This document shows positions 2,444 through 56,500 of a DNA stretch of 64,000 nucleotides, piece after piece. Below the pieces are notes generated by a model, which had not been told where the DNA came from, ran no database searches, and saw only the letters and a list, made by a program, of their open reading frames with translations. A program made the position numbers and the translations under genes. Positions within the stretch are counted from its first letter, which is position 1, and every line of letters starts with the position of its first letter. The stretch is taken from NCBI GenBank assembly GCA_002010215.1, contig MTMY01000047.1, forward strand, positions 1 to 64,000. Reading direction: 5' to 3'. This DNA is from Archaeoglobus sp. JdFR-37 (GTDB lineage: Archaea; Halobacteriota; Archaeoglobi; Archaeoglobales; Archaeoglobaceae).

Positions 2444-2914
2444 CTAAATAACAACGATCCTTCCAACCATCTGATTCTTGTGGTATTTGCACACAAGGTC
2501 GTAGCTTCCAGCCTCATTGAACTTGACAAGTATTGATTTACCTGGACCTAGTGGCTCATCGACCAGCGGCTCATCGTGGCCAGATTCGAAAATTGTAACG
2601 GTATGTGTGCCCTCTTCGTTCCTAAACTCAATAATCTGTCCTTCTTTCACCTCAATGTTTGCTGGAGAAAACTCAAAGTTCTTGAGAGTTACTGTAACAG
2701 CTGGCTCACCTTCATCAACAACCACAGCCTCTTCATGAGCCTCAGCCCCTTCTTCATGGTCTTCTTCAGCTTTTTCAGGTGTGCTTACCGGTGTGCTGGC
2801 CGGAGTACTTACTGGTGTACTAATTTCCTTAACCTCTGGTTTGGACTGCTGAGCACATCCTGCTACAAGAACTGCCAGAACCAGCAGTGCTACCAGAATG
2901 TATACTTTCCTCAT
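2444..2914 (-). CDS. Blue-copper (plastocyanin-like) lipoprotein
   Basis: The 156-residue product has a basic N-terminus, a hydrophobic segment and a lipobox-like VAGC, so it is probably a membrane-tethered extracytoplasmic lipoprotein. A Thr/Pro/Ser linker (about residues 30-50) and an acidic His/Glu stretch precede a cupredoxin domain (about 75-156). The copper ligands appear to be His in THTVT, then Cys and His in DLVCKYHKNQM with Met. The ATG at 2914 is preferred over GTG 2923 because AAAGGAGG is well placed before it. It is the last gene of the copper/Fe-S operon and is a likely soluble-side electron carrier for the CuA proteins upstream. Confidence 0.8.
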   Translation of the reverse strand: MRKVYILVALLVLAVLVAGCAQQSKPEVKEISTPVSTPASTPVSTPEKAEEDHEEGAEAHEEAVVVDEGEPAVTVTLKNFEFSPANIEVKEGQIIEFRNEEGTHTVTIFESGHDEPLVDEPLGPGKSILVKFNEAGSYDLVCKYHKNQMVGRIVVI

Positions 2915-2944
2915 ATCTACCACCTCCTTTTATTTATCTCTTAT

Positions 2945-3412
2945 TCATCTCACCTCAAAAAACACCGAATCACCCAATACGGGCTGAGAAGGACCTTCAC
3001 CCACCATAGGGATGACGGTGTATCTGCCTTCGGGAGCGTCCTTACCTACATAAACTTCAAATGTTGCCTTCTGATTTTCTCCAATCACCCCTTCTTTAAC
3101 CGCGTAGATCTCCCCTTTAGGTGTGTAAATGACAATTTTTGCATAGAATCCAGAGTAGTCCATTTTCATTCCGGGAGCAAGGGCGTACACGGTTATCGAT
3201 AGCTTGGATGGCTTAGTGATGACGTTCTGGCTAACCAGTGCTGTAGGCTCCAACATATCTACCATCATCTGGCGCATTTCCTTCATGCGTTCTGTATTCT
3301 CATTTATTGGTTCATTTGTTATAGCCGTGTATCCCGATGTAATAGCCCAACTCGCTAGTATTAACACAAAAAACAAAATAGGGGGGAATTTTAAGACTTT
3401 ACCGAATCCCAT
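2945..3412 (-). CDS. Membrane-anchored Ig-like extracytoplasmic protein
   Basis: One N-terminal membrane helix (about residues 8-28) is followed by a roughly 120-residue beta-rich domain, with phrases such as KLSITVYALAPGM and GRYTVIPMVGEGPS resembling FixH/YtkA- or CopC-like Ig folds. No clear metal ligands beyond several Met residues (RMKEMRQMMVDM near 42-53), which could bind Cu(I) but need not. It is the fourth gene of the operon, 2 nt from the CuA cupredoxin gene. Role unknown; an assembly or scaffold factor for the copper proteins is plausible from context. Confidence 0.55.
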   Translation of the reverse strand: MGFGKVLKFPPILFFVLILASWAITSGYTAITNEPINENTERMKEMRQMMVDMLEPTALVSQNVITKPSKLSITVYALAPGMKMDYSGFYAKIVIYTPKGEIYAVKEGVIGENQKATFEVYVGKDAPEGRYTVIPMVGEGPSQPVLGDSVFFEVR

Positions 3413-3414
3413 TT

Positions 3415-3822
3415 TTATTCACCCTCCACAATTATAACCCCTTTCATGAAATTATGCATGGGGCTGCACATTATCGTACACTTGAATACGTAAACACCTT
3501 CCTTATCCGCAACAAATTCAAAAGCCTTCTTTTCTCCAGGCTTTATTTCCCCAAGATCCACCCCTAGACTTTTTATTGTGAAGCCGTGGGTTACATCCAT
3601 CCCTTCTACAACAATCCTGACCTTTTCTCCTTTTTTCACCTTTATTACGCTGGGTTCAAAACCTCCTGCTTCTTTTACTTGTGCTCTGATAACAATGGTT
3701 TTGGGTTCTTTCTTCTCAGGATTAAGCACATCATCCCACATCGGAAGGAAAATGGCTGTTACTGATAGAACCACCAGCATTAAAGCCAAACCCTCAAACA
3801 ATACAATACCCTTCCTAGACAT
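3415..3822 (-). CDS. Membrane-anchored CuA-type cupredoxin
   Basis: The 135-residue protein has one N-terminal membrane helix (about 8-27) and a cupredoxin domain. The full CuA binuclear copper set is visible: His79 in VTHGF, then Cys115-x3-Cys119-x3-His123-x2-Met126 (CTIMCSPMHNFM), the pattern of cytochrome oxidase subunit II and NosZ. It ends only 9 nt before the CuA-polyferredoxin fusion gene starts reading toward it, so the operon encodes two CuA domains. There is no heme-copper oxidase subunit I in the window, so this is not simply an oxidase subunit. It probably accepts or passes electrons on the outer membrane face. Confidence 0.85.
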   Translation of the reverse strand: MSRKGIVLFEGLALMLVVLSVTAIFLPMWDDVLNPEKKEPKTIVIRAQVKEAGGFEPSVIKVKKGEKVRIVVEGMDVTHGFTIKSLGVDLGEIKPGEKKAFEFVADKEGVYVFKCTIMCSPMHNFMKGVIIVEGE

Positions 3823-3831
3823 TTTTTCACC

Positions 3832-5856
3832 TCATCCTGCAACTATCCAAACGAATACCAGTCCAGCCATTGTATGGAGAATACCCATGACCAAAGTCGC
3901 TCTAAAGGCTTTAGCATGGTCGTTGAGGAGTTCCCTGGCTATATTATATGTGGTATTTATAGCTAGGGCCAATCCTATCAGCAACAGTGGTGCCTGAAGG
4001 TACGGCAATACTTCCGGACTGATTGGGTTCCACTCAAATTTCGTGCCAAATATGTTCCAGCCCCACCCTAGAGGATCAGAAAACGCAGTTATTGGGTAAG
4101 CCCAGTTCACCAGAATGAGTGAGAATGCAAAAGCGAGCCACAGGAACAATCCGTAGGGGACCAGTGCGTAACTGAAGGAAAGGAATAGTTGCCTCGTTGA
4201 TATGCCATTTTCACCTGCTAATTTCTTGGCAAGCCATGAGAATCCGTAAAATACTGCCGGATAACCCACAAGTGCAACCCCTGCTACTATTAATGCCCAT
4301 TTGAACCAGTTGTTTAGACCTTCCAGTGATGGTGTTAACAGACCAATTGTCGCCAGGTTGGCACCGTATATTATCCCCATGTTTCCCCAATCCTTAATCC
4401 AGAAGTAAGGGCCGAAGAAAACTAATTCGTAGAACACTGCCAATGTAAATCTTATGAAACCCATCCATGCTTCATCAAACTTATTCTTTGCTTTCGCAGC
4501 AATCTTGGCCAAATCTTGGCCAATCATTCTTAATTTAAGAGTCATGTTGTCGAGAGGGCAGGATCTAAGACATTCGTAGCACTGCCCACAGTAGGTATTC
4601 TCGTTGTGTCCACCAGGATATATCTTCCAAGGACACCCGTAACCGGTTGGGCTACCTCTTATGCACTCTTTTGGTCGATGTTTGTCACATACAGACTTGT
4701 CTCTACTTCTTACAGCAAAAATTGAAGCATTAGAGTGGTAACCTATGTATCCATTAGCCGGGCATATGCTTCTGCAGAAGTTTCTCTGGGGGTCAAATAT
4801 GATATGGGTAAACAAAGGTATGGCTATCAGCAATGCAAACAACAAACCAGTCACTACCGGTCTTGTAACAAGCCATGGCACGATAAGGGATATGCCAAGG
4901 AAGCTCAAGGCAGATACCCACATGTTATTAAGGCTTTTAGGCCACTTTTTACCCAAAGATGTCCACTTTCTTGGATTGTGAACACTGTATATTCTTCTTC
5001 TAGCAATCCACTCTCCGAATGCTGGAAGAGGACAGATAGTACACCAAGTTCTACTTCCAAATAAGATTAGAAACTCAACTGCCGCAAACCAGAGTATCCA
5101 CACGACGGCTATGGAGAAATTCTTGTTGCCTGTCGGGTTTCCAAAAAATCCGGCAGCTAATACTACCATGAAGATTAGGAGATTGGGTAAAATGAGGGTA
5201 AAGTGTGCTCCCCTCCACTGTAGGAACCTCTTGAGAATTGGTCCTATGACTCTTACCTTCAGCAGATCTAGATCTTTATCTAGGGAGACTCCAAGCATTC
5301 TGTTTTCTGGTGCTCGTGAAGTGTATAGGAGTGTTAAACCTGCAATAGTAAATGTTGAAGCCATTAGTATGTAAAAGAAGATGTTGGGTTTGACAATAAT
5401 ATCAGAGACCATAAATGGGTGTAGGGGGCCGCATGTTACAGAACATCGAAGCTTGATTTTTCCCGGTTTGTTGAAGGTTATCGGGCCGACTTCAACAATT
5501 TTTCCTGGTTCAATAACTATTCTATTGTCCCCAACTGCAGTAGGAGTGTATCCATCGATATAAAAGCCATGTGTGACATCTCCACTTATGACTCTAAATA
5601 CAATCCTGTCTCCCTCTTCGACTTCTAGAACACTTGGTTCTGATCCTTCAGGATATACTATTATTTTTGAACCGTCTTGAATTGCTTTTATTGCAAACCC
5701 AAACTGATATGCTTTGACAAATACTATCTTTGCATCCCCGTGGTCGTGAGGGTCGTTGAGCCACTCTTTTTCGCTAACAACATGGGCATTAACTGGGATG
5801 CCTAGAAGAAAGGCCAGTAAAATTGCTGAAATTATTACTAATATCTTACTACTCAT
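3832..5856 (-). CDS. CuA cupredoxin fused to a NapH/NosR-like polyferredoxin membrane protein
   Basis: The 674-residue product has a signal/anchor (5-24), a cupredoxin domain (about 40-155) with His96, Cys138, Cys142, His146 and Met149 in CuA spacing, then about ten membrane segments. Between these lie NapH/NosR-type cysteine motifs WCTICP (272, 275) and FCRSICP (361, 365), followed by a cytoplasmic Cys-rich part (390, 398, 408) and a classical CxxCxxCxxxCP (423-433). Bacterial NosR carries an extracytoplasmic flavin domain at the corresponding end; here a CuA domain replaces it. The inferred role is moving electrons between the quinone pool or cytoplasmic donors and an external copper centre. 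The first 8 nt overlap the upstream gene, so they are translationally coupled. Confidence 0.8.
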   Translation of the reverse strand: MSSKILVIISAILLAFLLGIPVNAHVVSEKEWLNDPHDHGDAKIVFVKAYQFGFAIKAIQDGSKIIVYPEGSEPSVLEVEEGDRIVFRVISGDVTHGFYIDGYTPTAVGDNRIVIEPGKIVEVGPITFNKPGKIKLRCSVTCGPLHPFMVSDIIVKPNIFFYILMASTFTIAGLTLLYTSRAPENRMLGVSLDKDLDLLKVRVIGPILKRFLQWRGAHFTLILPNLLIFMVVLAAGFFGNPTGNKNFSIAVVWILWFAAVEFLILFGSRTWCTICPLPAFGEWIARRRIYSVHNPRKWTSLGKKWPKSLNNMWVSALSFLGISLIVPWLVTRPVVTGLLFALLIAIPLFTHIIFDPQRNFCRSICPANGYIGYHSNASIFAVRSRDKSVCDKHRPKECIRGSPTGYGCPWKIYPGGHNENTYCGQCYECLRSCPLDNMTLKLRMIGQDLAKIAAKAKNKFDEAWMGFIRFTLAVFYELVFFGPYFWIKDWGNMGIIYGANLATIGLLTPSLEGLNNWFKWALIVAGVALVGYPAVFYGFSWLAKKLAGENGISTRQLFLSFSYALVPYGLFLWLAFAFSLILVNWAYPITAFSDPLGWGWNIFGTKFEWNPISPEVLPYLQAPLLLIGLALAINTTYNIARELLNDHAKAFRATLVMGILHTMAGLVFVWIVAG

Positions 5857-6274
5857 TTGATCCCTCCTTTAAAGTTTTATATTTCTTCCAAATTGTATCA
5901 GAGATTCTACTAAGGAGTTCAGAATAGGTTGGGTCAAGACCATCTGGATCTTTATCATCATTCCTCATTTCATCCAATTCGTCCCAGATAAACGAGGCTA
6001 GATTTTTACCTACCTCATACAGCTCGTTAGCCTCATCCACCTCTGAGGTATGCCTTCTGCCGGTAAGAGAAAGAACAGAATACAGAAGGATTGAACCACA
6101 ATAGGCTGCCTCACTTCTTTTATCAAGCCCTTCTTTTCTGGCTTTATAGATGTATTCTAGGACGTCAAGAGCGGGTTTAATGGCATCATCTCTGGAAAGA
6201 TCGTTTTTTCTGCTCCAGTACCATTTGTAAATGGCACTAGTTAGCTTCTGGATAGCTTCACTTTCCCCACCCAT
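5849..6274 (-). CDS. Helical soluble protein, first gene of the copper/Fe-S operon
   Basis: The 141-residue product has no membrane segment or signal peptide and is predicted to be all helical, with conserved-looking Trp/Tyr (YKWYWSRKN near residue 16) and an acidic C-terminus. I do not recognise the family. It overlaps the CuA-polyferredoxin gene by 8 nt, so a cytoplasmic accessory or Fe-S/maturation chaperone for that protein is a reasonable but unproven guess. Its promoter carries a TATA-like TTTAAATG near 6330-6337 and the palindromic operator at 6348-6368 lies just upstream of that. Confidence 0.55.
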   Translation of the reverse strand: MGGESEAIQKLTSAIYKWYWSRKNDLSRDDAIKPALDVLEYIYKARKEGLDKRSEAAYCGSILLYSVLSLTGRRHTSEVDEANELYEVGKNLASFIWDELDEMRNDDKDPDGLDPTYSELLSRISDTIWKKYKTLKEGSNE

Positions 6275-6347
6275 TTGTTTAACCCCCTAATCCGCCAATC
6301 CAGTCTCAGGGTATCCTTGCTTGACACAACATTTAAACAGGTACAAT

Positions 6348-6368
6348 GATTCTCATTTTGTGAGAACA
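6348..6368. promoter_or_regulatory. Operator copy 1: palindrome upstream of the copper/Fe-S operon
   Basis: GATTCTCAT-TTT-GTGAGAACA is an imperfect 9-3-9 inverted repeat with the core TTCTCA/TGAGAA. It sits about 12-15 bp upstream of the predicted TATA/BRE of the gene starting at 6274. The same core, with the same 3-nt spacer, recurs at 6936-6956 next to the regulator gene. Position upstream of TATA fits an activator, or a repressor that blocks TFB. Confidence 0.6.
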
Positions 6369-6369
6369 A

Positions 6370-6894
6370 CTATCTCTTGCGATAGAATGTGTACATAATA
6401 AAAAAGATGGCTGCTAACATCAGTGCTAAAGCAATTAATCCATAATCCGATTTTGTTTTATTAGATGGGAAGAAATTTGGCTTCACATCGATGTAAAATC
6501 TATCCCCATATTGCTTTCCCTCATACTGAAACGTGTATAAAATAAAATATCTTCCTTCTTTGTCAAAGGTGTAGTTCAGTTCATAATGTCCCTTATGAGG
6601 GTTTTTTTGTAGTAAAAAGGTAGCGTAACTGCTATCTCTAGAAATTACAAGCGTAAGGTTGTTAACATCAATTGCCTCGAAGCTACTAGCATTCTGAAAA
6701 TGGAATACAATATTTACCACTTCTTCTGAAAGAGGAGAGTCTGGTTTTATTTCAGTAGTTATTAATACTCCATTTATTTTATCTGAATAATAAGTTGCTG
6801 CTAAAAGATTCATGTATATGCTTAATACAGAAATGTTTAATAATAATAGTAATAAAATAAAGGAAGTAATAGGAAGCCTTCTTGTAATTCTCAT
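6370..6894 (-). CDS. Bitopic membrane protein with extracytoplasmic Ig-like domain
   Basis: The 174-residue product has an N-terminal hydrophobic segment (about 9-32), an extracytoplasmic beta domain (about 40-140; NIVFHFQNASSF and RYFILYTFQYEGKQYG suggest a YtkA/Ig-like fold) and a C-terminal membrane helix followed by a basic tail (YRKR). No metal ligands are obvious. The ATG at 6892-6894 is about 26 nt from the TATA-like TTAAATATAA on the minus strand (6915-6924), so a leaderless start is likely. It is divergent from the winged-helix regulator and shares the palindrome with it, so it probably belongs to the same regulon as the copper operon. Confidence 0.6.
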   Translation of the reverse strand: MRITRRLPITSFILLLLLLNISVLSIYMNLLAATYYSDKINGVLITTEIKPDSPLSEEVVNIVFHFQNASSFEAIDVNNLTLVISRDSSYATFLLQKNPHKGHYELNYTFDKEGRYFILYTFQYEGKQYGDRFYIDVKPNFFPSNKTKSDYGLIALALMLAAIFFIMYTFYRKR

Positions 6895-6935
6895 ATTATG
6901 TTAATGACTTTTTGTTATATTTAACATATGGTGAC

Positions 6936-6956
6936 AATTCTCATAGTATGAGAATT
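6936..6956. promoter_or_regulatory. Operator copy 2: perfect palindrome between divergent promoters
   Basis: AATTCTCAT-AGT-ATGAGAATT is a perfect 9-3-9 inverted repeat. It lies midway between the minus-strand TATA (6915-6924) and a plus-strand TATA-like TTTAATAAAA (6967-6976), about 10-12 bp from each. This placement suits control of both the membrane protein at 6370-6894 and the regulator at 7003-7350, and matches operator copy 1. Confidence 0.65.
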
Positions 6957-7002
6957 AAACGACACATTTAATAAAAAATGGGGGGAAGAAGGTAAATCAT
7001 CC

Positions 7003-7350
7003 ATGAATGATAGAAAAAAGAGATATCTTAAGTACCTGTGTAACGAGCACTCAAATAAGATTTTGGTATCGCTGATGGAGAAAGAATTATCTGCAAATGA
7101 GATAAGCAAAGAGTGTAACATTCCCCTCCAGACAGTTTACAGAATCCTGAAGCAGCTGGAGAACGATGGGCTCATCAGAGTGAGCAGAATGAAGCTTGAT
7201 GAACAGGGCCATCACTTCAAAATATTTAAGGCTAATGTAATTCGAATTCTAGTAATGGTGGATGGGAATGGGGTTGAAATTAGGCTGTTTGAAGAAGATA
7301 AGGCAGAACGTCTCGCATCATTATGGAAGAGTCTTAAGGAGGTGAAATGA
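7003..7350 (+). CDS. Winged-helix transcriptional regulator of the copper redox locus
   Basis: The 115-residue protein begins with a basic helix, then a helix-turn-helix (LSANEISKECNIPLQTVYRI, about residues 29-48) and a wing ending in GLIRVSRMKLDEQGHHFKIF. This is the ArsR/TrmB-like winged-helix fold common in archaea. No metal-binding Cys cluster is seen except one Cys in the helix; the DEQGHH stretch could bind metal. The gene overlaps none but abuts the next one (stop TGA 7348-7350, GTG 7351). Its autoregulation through the 6936-6956 palindrome and control of the operon at 6274 are inferred from site sharing. Confidence 0.75.
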   Translation: MNDRKKRYLKYLCNEHSNKILVSLMEKELSANEISKECNIPLQTVYRILKQLENDGLIRVSRMKLDEQGHHFKIFKANVIRILVMVDGNGVEIRLFEEDKAERLASLWKSLKEVK

Positions 7351-7632
7351 GTGACCCATACAATTCTGCATGTAGTGGTTTTTACGTTTAAGATAATTGG
7401 TTTTGTTATAAGTATGTATATAGCATTATTAAGTTATCGCTCTTATATTAAGAAAGCAGATAGGTCCATGCTGTTTCTCGGTGCTGGATTTGCGGTAGTT
7501 TCTTTTGCCATTATAATCGAAGGAATAATTTACGAAGTGTTACTGTTAAGTTTAGAAATTGCTCACACACTCCAGAATGTTCTCTTCACAATAGGGATGA
7601 TACTAATATATTTATCACTAAGAGAAAATTGA
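7351..7632 (+). CDS. Small three-helix membrane protein (DUF7521-like) partner of the regulator
   Basis: Starting with GTG immediately after the regulator's stop codon, this 93-residue product has three predicted membrane segments (about 5-27, 38-58, 68-88) separated by a short basic loop (YRSYIKKADRS). Small membrane proteins of this layout are often encoded directly after winged-helix regulators in haloarchaea and related groups (DUF7521), and I assign it there tentatively. It could sense or sequester the regulator at the membrane, but nothing in the sequence proves this. Confidence 0.55.
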   Translation: MTHTILHVVVFTFKIIGFVISMYIALLSYRSYIKKADRSMLFLGAGFAVVSFAIIIEGIIYEVLLLSLEIAHTLQNVLFTIGMILIYLSLREN

Positions 7633-7777: not shown

Positions 7778-9916
7778 TTAGTGTAGAATTCTCATAGCAT
7801 TAAATACAGCTATCAGAGTAACACCGATGTCTGCAAATACTGCCTCCCACATGGTTGCCACCCCAAGAGACCCCAGAATGATGAAGAAACCCTTAACGGT
7901 CAGAGCAAACCCTATGTTCTGCCAGACTATATGCTGGGTTCGCCTTGCTATTCTGATGGATTTTGGTACTTTTGATGGCATATCGTCCATTATAACAACA
8001 TCTGCCACCTCTATTGCAGCTTCACTTCCAAGCCCACCCATGGCTATTCCAACGTCTGCTCTCGCAATAACGGGGGCATCATTTATTCCATCTCCAGCAA
8101 AGGCAACTCTACCGTTTCTACCTTTAAGCCCCTCTACAACCCTCACTTTATCTTCAGGCAGGAGTTCAGCATAGTATTCATCCACTTCAAGCTTATCTGC
8201 CACCTTCTCTGCAATCTCCCTGCTATCTCCTGTAACCATGACAACCCTACAGCCAAGCCTTTTCAGCTCATCCACTGCTTTCCTCGCATCCTCTTTCAGC
8301 TGATCCGCCACAATAATGTAGCCTGCATAAATTCCATTTACTGCAACATGAACAATAGTCCCTTCAACATCACATGAATCGTGCTCTATGTCCATTTCAT
8401 GCATCAGGGCATCGTTACCCACAATTATTGAATAGCCATTGATCTCTGCTCTTACGCCTCTGCCAGATATCTCTTCGTAGCTTTTGACCGAGTAATTTGG
8501 GTAACTTTTAACTGAACTGTCAACCTCTCCAGAATCACCTTCTCTCCAACTTATCTCGTCCTTCTCGTAAGCCTCCACTATTGATCTGGCGATGGGATGG
8601 TTGGAGTGCATTTCCGCAAGAGCGGCGTATCTAAGCACATCCTCCTGGCTAAATCCGTTCTTCGCCACTACCTCTGCAACCCTGAAATTTCCCTTGGTAA
8701 GCGTCCCTGTCTTATCGAAGGCGACGATTCCAGCTGAACTGAGAACGTCGATGAAATTCGCTCCTTTTACAAGTATCCCTTCCCTTGCTGCCTTCCCAAT
8801 TGATGCAAAGTAGCTCAGGGGAACTGAGAGGACGAGAGCACAGGGGCAAGAGATAACAAGCAGAACTAAAGCTCGATAAATCCAGGGTGTAAAAGGTTCA
8901 CCAAGCATTACAGGTGGGATTAACGCAACAGAAGAAGCAAGAGCTATGACCGCGGGGGTATAATAGCGGGCGAAGCGGGTTATGAACTTCTCCGCCATCG
9001 CTTTTCTGCTGCCTGCTTCTTCCACAAGCTGGAGGATTCTTGAGACTGTTGAGTCGCTGAATGGCTTTGTCACTCTCACCGTGATCAGACCACCCATGTT
9101 CACCATGCCTGAAAGAACTTCATCTCCTTCAGCAACACTTCTCGGTTCTGATTCTCCTGTTAAAGCGGATGTATCGACCGCTGAGGAGCCTTCAATGACC
9201 ATTCCGTCAAGAGGTATTTTCTCTCCTGGCCTTACAACAATGATGTCTCCAACCTTCACTTCTTCCGGCTTGACTTTGATGATGTCTCCATCAACCCTGA
9301 GATTTGCGTAGGTGGGCTTTATTTCCAGCAATGCCTTTATCGACCTACGGGATTTCCCTACTGCCAAATCCTGGAAGAACTCCCCAATTCTGAAGAAGAG
9401 CATCACACCGACAGCCTCAGGCATCTCATGAATTGCAATGGCTCCAATCGTCGCAATACTCATCAGGAAGTTCTCGTCAAATATGGCTCCTTTTGTGATG
9501 TTTCTGCCAGCTTTCCAGAGTATTCTCCAACCGGCAATCAGATAAGCTGAAAAGAACAGGCTATATTCGGCTAAGGGTAGAGAGTGAAGAGTCTCACCTA
9601 AGAATATTCCAGTTAAAAATAAGGCTGAAGATGCAATAATTGAGATCAGATCTTTTTTAGGGTCCTCTCCATCTTCTCTACCTTTATCGACATGAAAACC
9701 ACCAAAGTCATCGTGCTCAACCTCCACCTCTGGCTCAACTTTTTTGATGGTTTCCACAACTTTATCAATATCTTCAGCATCCACAACAAGCTCAGAGGTG
9801 GAGAAGTTTACAGCAGCAAATTTTACTCCTTCCTGTTTTTTCAACTCTTCCTCAATCTTGACCGCACAGGTTGCACAATCAAGACCCTTCAGCTTGTACC
9901 TCTTTATTCCCTTCAC
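7778..9916 (-). CDS. cadA: P1B-type heavy-metal-transporting ATPase (Zn/Cd/Pb class)
   Basis: The 712-residue protein has an N-terminal heavy-metal-associated domain with GLDCATC (about residues 13-17), membrane helices, an actuator loop (TGES), the CPC motif (SCPCALVLS) in the sixth helix, the phosphorylation site DKTGTLTKG, the nucleotide site SNHPIA and the hinge GDGINDAP. The last helices contain ADIGVTLIAVFNAMR, the DxG signature of P1B-2 pumps for Zn, Cd and Pb. It should export divalent soft metals from the cytoplasm using ATP. The ArsR-type sensor gene ends 6 nt upstream, so they form an operon. Confidence 0.9.
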   Translation of the reverse strand: MKGIKRYKLKGLDCATCAVKIEEELKKQEGVKFAAVNFSTSELVVDAEDIDKVVETIKKVEPEVEVEHDDFGGFHVDKGREDGEDPKKDLISIIASSALFLTGIFLGETLHSLPLAEYSLFFSAYLIAGWRILWKAGRNITKGAIFDENFLMSIATIGAIAIHEMPEAVGVMLFFRIGEFFQDLAVGKSRRSIKALLEIKPTYANLRVDGDIIKVKPEEVKVGDIIVVRPGEKIPLDGMVIEGSSAVDTSALTGESEPRSVAEGDEVLSGMVNMGGLITVRVTKPFSDSTVSRILQLVEEAGSRKAMAEKFITRFARYYTPAVIALASSVALIPPVMLGEPFTPWIYRALVLLVISCPCALVLSVPLSYFASIGKAAREGILVKGANFIDVLSSAGIVAFDKTGTLTKGNFRVAEVVAKNGFSQEDVLRYAALAEMHSNHPIARSIVEAYEKDEISWREGDSGEVDSSVKSYPNYSVKSYEEISGRGVRAEINGYSIIVGNDALMHEMDIEHDSCDVEGTIVHVAVNGIYAGYIIVADQLKEDARKAVDELKRLGCRVVMVTGDSREIAEKVADKLEVDEYYAELLPEDKVRVVEGLKGRNGRVAFAGDGINDAPVIARADVGIAMGGLGSEAAIEVADVVIMDDMPSKVPKSIRIARRTQHIVWQNIGFALTVKGFFIILGSLGVATMWEAVFADIGVTLIAVFNAMRILH

Positions 9917-9922
9917 TTACTC

Positions 9923-10306
9923 TCACCTGGTTTCACGTTCCTCTCCAATATGCTCCAGAGCTATGTCAAGAATAGCAGCCACATGTTCATCGTCGAGACT
10001 GTAATAAACATTTCTGCCCTTCCTCCTGTATTTCACCAGCTTTTTGTCCCTCAAAACTCTGAGCTGATGAGATACTGCTGAGACGGATAAGCCTGTAATT
10101 GTGGAAATATCGCAGGTGCAGAGTTCATGCCTGGACAAAGCGAGAAGTATCTTGATGCGAGAAGAATCGCCGAATGCCTCTAGAAATTCCGCCAGTTCCA
10201 CTATACGCTCATCTGATGGCAGGCTTGAGGTTACTGTCTCTAGATATTCCCCTGTGCTTCCTCCTTTGCACACTGGTACTCTCTCACTTTTCTCACTTTT
10301 TTCCAT
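9923..10306 (-). CDS. ArsR/SmtB-family metal-sensing repressor
   Basis: The 127-residue winged-helix protein contains ELCTCD in the alpha-3 helix (the soft-metal site of ArsR/CadC), a Cys near the N-terminus (VPVCKGG) and DEHVAAILDIALEHIGEE near the end, which fits the alpha-5 zinc motif DxHx10HxxE. It therefore seems to carry both soft-metal and Zn sites and should release DNA when metal is high. I place the start at ATG 10306: the TATA sequence at about 10328-10338 lies 26 nt upstream, giving a leaderless mRNA. A TTG at 10324 is in frame but would sit inside the operator. Confidence 0.85.
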   Translation of the reverse strand: MEKSEKSERVPVCKGGSTGEYLETVTSSLPSDERIVELAEFLEAFGDSSRIKILLALSRHELCTCDISTITGLSVSAVSHQLRVLRDKKLVKYRRKGRNVYYSLDDEHVAAILDIALEHIGEERETR

Positions 10307-10328
10307 ATTTGAACAATTGCTCAAATAT
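10305..10328. promoter_or_regulatory. ArsR/SmtB operator overlapping the start site of the metal-efflux operon
   Basis: ATATTTGAACAATTGCTCAAATAT is a 24-bp near-perfect inverted repeat with the 12-2-12 form known for ArsR/SmtB operators (TGAACA...TGCTCA core). It covers the predicted transcription start and start codon of the repressor, with a TATA box (TATACTATA-like on the minus strand) immediately upstream. Repression of both repressor and pump through this site is the expected arrangement. Confidence 0.8.
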
Positions 10329-55190: not shown

Positions 55191-56500
55191 AGGTGACAAA
55201 ATTGGTGGAGTTAGCAAGACTAAAGTTGGTGAAAAGACTGAAATTTAAGATGTCATAATTGTTGGCGGAGGCGTTGCCGGCTTGTCTGCTGGGATGTATA
55301 CGGTGAGACTTGGCCTGAAATCAGCCGTCATTGGTAAAGATATTGGAGGAATGATAACTCTAACCCAGTATATCGAAAACTGGCCGGGTTTCAAGAGAAT
55401 TAACACTTTCGAGCTCACAGACATGCTGGAAGACCATGCTTCCAGTTATGGCGTCAAGATTATTGAGAAGGAGGTTACGAGCATATCAATCGAAAGAAAC
55501 AGGTTCAGGTGCGTCGTTGGAGATGATCGCTCTTCTCCTATGCTGTTATAATTGCAACAGGGACAGAGAGAAGAAAGCTAAAGGTGAAAGGATATGACAG
55601 ATTTGAGAACAGAAATATCCACTACTGCGCCTTCTGTGATGGACCTAACTATCAGGGCAAAAGAATGGCAGTTATCGGAGGAGGAAATGCTGCGGTTGTT
55701 GAGGCCATGGTTCTTGCCGGGTATGCGGAAAAGGTTTACATCATAAGCAGGTCAGAACTCCATGCTGAGCCTGCAAATCTCAAGAAGCTGAAAAATCTGG
55801 AAAATATCGAAGTTCTCAACGGATATAACGTTTTAGCCTTCGAAGGTGGGGACAGGCTAGAAAGGATAAAGCTAGACAAGGAGTATGATGGAGAGAATAC
55901 TCTTGAAGTCGATGGCGTATTCATTTCCCTCGGTGGTGTTCCCAATTCGAAGCTTGCAGTAAAATTAGGCGTCAAAATAAACGAAAAGGGAGAGATTGTG
56001 GTAAATGAGGCCATGAAAACCAACATCCCTGGAGTTTTTGCTTCTGGCGATGTTGTGGCCAACCCCTTCAAGCAGGCAATAATCTCATCGACCCAGGGGG
56101 TTATGGCAGCATATTCAGCATATCGCTTCATTACGGGCAAACCTGTCTATACTTGTAATCATAGAACCCTATGCAGAACCAATGGTTGCAGATGCTGAGG
56201 ATGTGAAGGAAGCACCGGAGAGAAAGGCTCTTATAATAGACGTCAGGGAAAGAGAGGAGTACGAAAAAGCCCACATCCCAACAGCAATTTTTGGGGAGAT
56301 AAAACGGCTTGAAGAGCTGGAGGACATTCTGAAGAATGTTGAGGAAATTTAATGTGTATTCAAAAGATTATAATTGTTCGGCCAGCACCTTAGCAGCAAA
56401 AAAGCTTGTTGAGATGGGTTTTTGCAACGTTTATGATTTCCAAGGCTCTTTCAAGGAGTGGATGGAGAAGGGCTACGAAATCGAAAAATCTCATCCATAG
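55183..56500 (+). pseudogene. Thioredoxin reductase-rhodanese fusion, inactivated by several lesions
   Basis: From ATG 55183 a frame ends at TAA 55246-55248, right before DVIIVGGGVAGLSAGMYTVR, so a Tyr codon has become a stop. The FAD domain continues to 55537, where a one-base loss (or two-base gain) moves the frame to YAVIIATGTERRKLK and the redox pair HYCAFCDG plus GKRMAVIGGGNAAVVEA. Near 56150 another shift leads to a C-terminal rhodanese (LIIDVREREEYEKAHIP), and near 56350 a fourth shift gives YNCSASTLAAKKLVEM and the end at TAG 56498-56500. Four lesions in one gene argue for a pseudogene. The 3' end overlaps dph2. Confidence 0.85.

Follow-up and report, generated by a model that had tools for sequence, protein, structure and literature searches.

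The copper operon of Archaeoglobus sp. JdFR-37

We analysed a stretch of 64,000 nucleotides (the window) from contig MTMY01000047.1 of Archaeoglobus sp. JdFR-37, and found on its reverse strand, at 2,444–6,274, five genes lying head to tail in the order HEL, fusion, CuA2, IGL and BLUE. The spacings are only −8, 9, 2 and 21 nt, so the five genes constitute one operon. Its central gene joins a CuA cupredoxin (CuA1) to a NapH/NosR-like polyferredoxin. The locus, common to archaea of several phyla, is a fused and expanded version of the published CuA-NapH-CuA trio. On balance we favour the view that the operon is a membrane electron-delivery module for exported reductases, an archaeal analogue of NosR/NapGH, and the acceptors served are probably nitrogen-oxide reductases most often. 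This view is supported by the recurrence of the CuA1-NapH-CuA2 trio and by its neighbours in different archaea, which include NosZ, molybdenum type II enzymes and a CuA-cytochrome d1 nitrite reductase.

The CuA-polyferredoxin fusion protein

Residues from about 65 to 157 of the fusion protein matched the CuA domain of Thermus ba3 oxidase by sequence (E 7e-10), profile and fold. Through the alignment and a ligand survey we found the CuA ligand set complete (H96, C138, C142, H146 and M149). The remainder of the protein matched Fer4_5 in Pfam (E 1e-5) and had weak NapH/MauN similarity, its TIGR02163 score of 26.4 bits being below the cut-off of 213. A preliminary description of the locus, made from the sequence, had placed a CuA domain where NosR has its flavin domain; in agreement with this, the Pfam scan gave no FMN (flavin mononucleotide)-binding match in the fusion, and the CuA domain stands at that place. 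Solved structures were matched by the CuA part alone, and the polyferredoxin part had no such match by fold or profile.

The AlphaFold model (predicted local distance difference test, pLDDT, 78; predicted template modelling score, pTM, 0.82) predicts a signal helix, an external CuA domain and ten membrane helices. These helices form a core and a five-helix C-terminal extension, which follows the Fe-S domain (460–481, 511–547, 554–584, 614–644 and 647–673). Lysine and arginine numbered 8, 8, 17, 2 and 2 in the inside loops versus 1, 1, 1, 1 and 0 in the outside loops after CuA. Because the positively charged loops lie on the inner side, the Fe-S cysteines are all predicted to be cytoplasmic, with CuA outside.

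Four cysteine motifs were recognised, C272xxC275P, C361xxxC365P, C390..C398..C408P and C423xxCxxCxxxC433, and their cysteines show little or no variation in an alignment of 15 rows (the window protein and 14 relatives). The roughly ten membrane helices and four motifs of the preliminary description were thus borne out, with one amendment. The third motif contains His in place of Cys in 12 of the 15 rows, including H393 of the window protein (about position 4,678), and Cys in the remaining three, which suggests a His-ligated cluster. No conserved haem ligands were recognised.

Accompanying proteins of the operon

The CuA2 motif CTIMCSPMHNFM contains the full CuA ligand set, and the pattern H...CxxxCxxxHxxM is found in both CuA proteins. 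The families best matching CuA2 were the NosZ C-terminal domain, COX2 and nitrosocyanin. BLUE has orthologues in three related loci (L003, L004 and L005), and HEL orthologues lie adjacent to the module in eight (L003, L004, L005, L006, L007, L008, L010 and L011). HEL was modelled as a five-helix bundle (pLDDT 87), in which no signal or transmembrane (TM) segment was detected and for which no significant fold match was found in PDB.

IGL and the protein encoded at 6,370–6,894 had been called Ig-like; neither showed a significant Pfam match, and the name was only a guess. The KFPPIxFF anchor of the IGL type bears a third CuA-like domain in L007 and L008, that of L008 being without the final Met. 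An orthologue of the 6,370–6,894 protein was not found in the related loci compared.

Distribution and phylogeny

Relatives of the fusion at 55–73% identity were found in Hydrothermarchaeum, Archaeoglobi, Hecatella, Methanomassiliicoccales, Thermoplasmatota, Nitrososphaerales and Thermofilaceae metagenome-assembled genomes (MAGs), and a deltaproteobacterial MAG contained one at 34% identity. The distribution is sparse within the sampled phyla, with 15 of 394 genomes in the phylum of the window genome and 14 of 398 in another, and some of these matches are distant polyferredoxins lacking CuA. We take genomes G117 and G024 to be A. fulgidus and Ferroglobus placidus, both of the same family as the window genome.

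In a tree of the polyferredoxin core, 19 proteins including the window protein and A. fulgidus AF0143 formed one clade (support 100/100). Instead of grouping with its own family, the window protein clustered with Hydrothermarchaeum (100/99), and for this reason we consider transfer of the operon between archaeal phyla probable. One Methanomassiliicoccales contig (L007) contains two tandem copies of the module, one CuA-fused and the other split.

Two further loci (L103:1392–3311 and L104) encode related polyferredoxins with an N-terminal beta domain that is not CuA, beside CcdA- and Sco-like genes. Distant polyferredoxins without CuA, in L105 and L107 (taken for Sulfolobales) and in family f36 (L138–L141), were not used for function.

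Comparison with known systems

The preliminary description had proposed an undescribed system, which does not hold, as the trio was published in 2015 for A. fulgidus (PMC4543118) and appears in the Methanoperedens nar operon (PMC4683180). In A. fulgidus, AF0141–AF0144 encode a NapH homologue, which has nine TM helices and several [4Fe-4S] sites, with a CuA gene of COX2 type on each side; they were raised during growth on CO and sulfate and were called a "nitrate reductase-like respiratory complex" (Hocking et al. 2015, PMC4543118). The same type of trio is conserved in A. sulfaticallidus and, next to nosZ, in F. placidus (PMC4543118). Like the window locus, AF0141–AF0144 combine NapH with two CuA proteins, and their NapH falls in the same 19-member clade as the window protein. 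They differ in having CuA1 and NapH as separate genes, and HEL, IGL and blue-copper genes were not found beside them. Locus L135, which we take to be from A. sulfaticallidus, contains a clean fused CuA-polyferredoxin gene.

The Methanoperedens operon has the order NarG-NarH-NarJ-Orf7-HCO II-NapH-HCO II, and its NapH has five extra C-terminal helices (Arshad et al. 2015, PMC4683180). Compared by this published description, it resembles the window in having a CuA protein on either side of a NapH that is extended C-terminally by five TM helices; its genes are split and linked to narGH, whereas those of the window are fused and unlinked. The trio arrangement is recognisable in the window from the C-terminal extension of about five TM helices, CuA1 fused N-terminally and CuA2 following after 9 nt. 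What the window has beyond the known trio is the fused gene, the genes HEL, IGL and BLUE, and a likely operator of its own.

NosR and the fusion both combine an extracytoplasmic redox domain with a membrane polyferredoxin carrying CxxxCP-type motifs, but the fusion has CuA instead of the FMN-binding domain, has extra C-terminal helices and lies in a genome in which no nosZ was found. With NapH/MauN (TIGR02163) it shares the core membrane protein, in which two motifs are of the CxxxCP type and two of the ferredoxin type, and it differs by the CuA domain and the five-helix extension; NapG, NapA and NapB were not found beside it. The window CuA proteins have the complete ligand set and fold of the CuA domain of cytochrome c oxidase subunit II and NosZ, yet are in neither an oxidase nor a NosZ operon.

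Neighbours of the module and loss of the CuA sites

In Ferroglobus, split CuA and polyferredoxin genes are divergent from nosZ, behind which lie nosL, nosD, nosF and nosY (these four were named by sight, nosZ was not). In L010 and L073, CuA2 is followed, directly or one gene on, by genes for an exported molybdenum type II alpha subunit, a beta subunit and a TorD-like protein. Three Archaeoglobaceae loci (L024, L025 and L136) contain an ethylbenzene-dehydrogenase-like molybdenum type II alpha subunit, a haem b gamma subunit and a cytochrome-b-like membrane protein with a C-terminal HEL. A Thermofilaceae MAG (L011/L078; L078:1442–5905) has an unbroken row of a CuA-cytochrome d1 protein, HEL, the fusion and CuA2. 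Its d1 domain was matched with E 4.5e-99, and the CuA domain takes the position of haem c in cytochrome cd1. Beside a second CuA-d1 protein, in genome G505, we looked for the module and did not find it. In Chloroflexi, fusions of a cupredoxin with NirS have been described (PMC8756737).

Almost all copies of the module surveyed have both CuA motifs in full. CuA1 and CuA2 sites were lost jointly in L024, L025 and L136, exactly the loci with the molybdenum alpha, gamma and cytochrome-b-like genes, as if a haem route there substituted for the copper route. Loss of copper ligands in close relatives, which the preliminary description had held to count against its proposal, thus does occur, in this one subclade, and the ligands are intact in nearly all others. 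The joint loss is a natural experiment on the cooperation of both CuA proteins.

Nitrogen-oxide genes in the window genome

The window genome is a MAG, 94.5% complete, and the genome-wide statements here rest on family searches and on the stretches examined. On the window's contig, outside the window (L035:4534–15788), we found NarG (1,605 bits, cut-off 1,084) with NarH, NarJ, NarI and NarK. NorB and NorC lie there too, with 86% and 82% identity to their Ferroglobus counterparts. NosZ was not found in the genome: there was no PF18764 match, and TIGR04246 matched only CuA2, in the C-terminal part. As the preliminary description had noted, neither NosZ nor an oxidase subunit I is encoded in the window. 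The wider search that it recommended, for nosZ, nitric oxide reductase and oxidase genes elsewhere, gave NorB as the sole COX1-family gene of the genome, about 80 kb from the module and with its own cytochrome c. We therefore rejected the window as part of a NosZ locus, and a heme-copper oxidase as the acceptor was rejected likewise.

A cytochrome d1 protein was not found in the window genome; NirK and NrfA were not searched for. The Ferroglobus genome paper reported Nar, NorBC and NosZ, found neither NirS nor NirK, and suspected a new nitrite reductase (PMC3236036). The window genome, with Nar and NorBC and no d1 nitrite reductase found, has the same gap.

Proposed function and other explanations

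In the proposed mechanism, the cytoplasmic Fe-S clusters of the polyferredoxin would receive electrons from the quinone pool, from cytoplasmic ferredoxin or from both, and these would then pass through the membrane to the CuA domain that the same polypeptide exposes on the outside. From there CuA2 and BLUE would relay them onward to the exported terminal reductase, and HEL may be a cytoplasmic factor on the Fe-S side. A path from cytoplasm or quinone to an external CuA had been suggested in the preliminary description, and the predicted membrane topology makes it plausible. Since the genome has NarGHJI, NarK and NorBC and no NosZ, nitrogen-oxide respiration is the likeliest role in the window organism.

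Several observations weigh against the electron-delivery function as worded here. No reductase is adjacent in the window, and nar and nor are 80–95 kb off. The nosZ-linked copy and one molybdenum-linked copy fall outside the 19-row clade of the window protein. The complete A. fulgidus genome has the module without NosZ or a heme-copper enzyme, and Archaeoglobales species of its kind are without known nitrate respiration (PMC4543118). Nitrogen oxides therefore cannot be the sole acceptors, and A. fulgidus is the strongest argument for a wider acceptor range.

The same species favours an oxidative direction of flow, or a ferredoxin/quinone balancing valve in sulfate reducers. Such a module would need no dedicated reductase and would pass electrons among ferredoxin, menaquinone and the copper carriers outside the membrane. 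A. fulgidus retains the module with no such partner enzyme and raises it on CO and sulfate, where reduced ferredoxin is plentiful, and Hocking et al. proposed an interaction with ferredoxin and menaquinone (PMC4543118). Three relatives also adjoin ethylbenzene-dehydrogenase-like molybdenum enzymes, which may be oxidative; however, these three loci have lost both CuA sites, so they give no evidence for CuA acting in this way. CuA potentials are also far above those of sulfate or menaquinone, and we regard such a valve as unlikely. Copper or metal homeostasis, in which cupredoxins and a membrane reductase would keep extracytoplasmic copper reduced or move copper, is suggested by ArsR regulators and/or P-type metal ATPases within a few kb of the module in several Archaeoglobaceae loci, namely the window (7,778–10,324), L026, L027, L028, L135 and L137. 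But related loci in other phyla adjoin respiratory reductases instead of metal genes, CuA sites are electron-transfer sites, and the CPC-x4-SxP motif, as in the window ATPase, is typical of Zn/Cd pumps and not of copper pumps. Homeostasis thus appears to us improbable. It seems most doubtful that the genes are a maturation or donor set for NosZ or a heme-copper oxidase whose partner was lost from an incomplete MAG. Related genes do adjoin nosZ in Ferroglobus, CuA2 is most similar to the NosZ C-terminal CuA, and the assembly is incomplete; but among 16 genomes with the module, NosZ exceeded the cut-off in Ferroglobus alone, and seven, including the complete A. fulgidus genome, have no COX1-family protein.

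Within the electron-delivery function, one speculation, to which we give little credence, concerns the NO-forming nitrite reductase still missing from nitrate-respiring Archaeoglobaceae: the fused module might serve it as a dedicated donor or form part of it. The idea arises because Ferroglobus and the window species have Nar and NorBC, with no NirS or NirK in the published Ferroglobus annotation and no d1 protein found in the window genome, and because the Thermofilaceae module shares an operon with a CuA-cytochrome d1 nitrite reductase.

One Fe-S polyferredoxin and CuA module is wired to NosZ, molybdenum enzymes and a CuA-type cytochrome d1 nitrite reductase in different archaea, so the same device for delivering electrons may be used at several steps of nitrogen-oxide respiration in archaea.

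Regulation

Between REG and the 6,370–6,894 gene we found the perfect 21-bp palindrome AATTCTCATAGTATGAGAATT, for which the expected number is 0.01 for the pattern at ≤3 mismatches. A copy with one mismatch, TTCTCATTTTGTGAGAA, is located upstream of HEL, so that both promoters contain the operator-like motif. Judged from these sequences, AATTCTCATAGTATGAGAATT is likely the REG operator, and TTCTCATNNNATGAGAA is a candidate for the sequence bound by REG. A REG orthologue (66% identical) lies beside the module in L005, where the REG-HEL intergenic region contains two copies of the palindrome, and a partial one is in L004. Exact matches among 142 loci were found only in stretches of the window genome and the L005 genome, L116 being treated as a duplicate of the L005 contig. 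The earlier suggestion of self-regulation is supported by operator palindromes in both promoters that recur in a second genome. With its regulator and operator defined, the fused version offers a testable handle on a complex so far annotated only.

Other features of the window

All genes of the preliminary description were found at their coordinates (Table 1). The 6,370–6,894 gene lies 95 nt upstream of HEL, and REG and the DUF7521 gene diverge from it.

Table 1. Features of the copper operon and its surroundings in the window
Feature	Position	Strand	Basis or remark
HEL, soluble five-helix protein, first gene of the operon	5849..6274	-	8-nt overlap with fusion gene; model, adjacent orthologues
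CuA cupredoxin fused to NapH/NosR-like polyferredoxin, 10 TM helices	3832..5856	-	profiles, alignment, model
Segment coding the CuA domain of the fusion (about residues 64–157)	5384..5667	-	sequence and fold match, ligands
Segment coding the cytoplasmic Fe-S motifs of the fusion	4528..5052	-	alignment with relatives, model topology
CuA2, membrane-anchored CuA protein, motif CTIMCSPMHNFM	3415..3822	-	profile matches, ligand survey
IGL, membrane-anchored extracytoplasmic protein, conserved KFPPIxFF anchor	2945..3412	-	comparison with related loci
BLUE, blue-copper (plastocyanin/halocyanin-like) lipoprotein, GTG start, lipobox LVAGC	2444..2923	-	Copper-bind and Cupredoxin_1 matches
Membrane-anchored extracytoplasmic protein, weakly YtkA-like, C-terminal TM	6370..6894	-	sequence features
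REG, winged-helix (TrmB/ArsR-like) regulator, divergent from the operon	7003..7350	+	profile match
DUF7521 membrane protein paired with REG	7351..7632	+	profile match; orthologue in L005
Perfect 21-bp palindrome AATTCTCATAGTATGAGAATT, likely REG operator	6936..6956	.	between REG and 6370–6894
Second operator copy TTCTCATTTTGTGAGAA, one mismatch	6350..6366	.	HEL promoter region

Beside the module, 7,778–10,324 encodes a P-type metal ATPase (CPCALVLSVP motif) and an ArsR regulator. Similar ATPase/ArsR genes are near the module in L026, L027 and L135, and an ArsR-like gene in L137.

On the other side, the ABC transporter ATPase frame at 1,248–2,159 matched only positions 56–136 of the 137-position ABC profile. 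Its N-terminal part is apparently gone, perhaps through a break or a frameshift upstream. At 55,282–56,198 a thioredoxin-reductase-like protein is apparently split across two reading frames.

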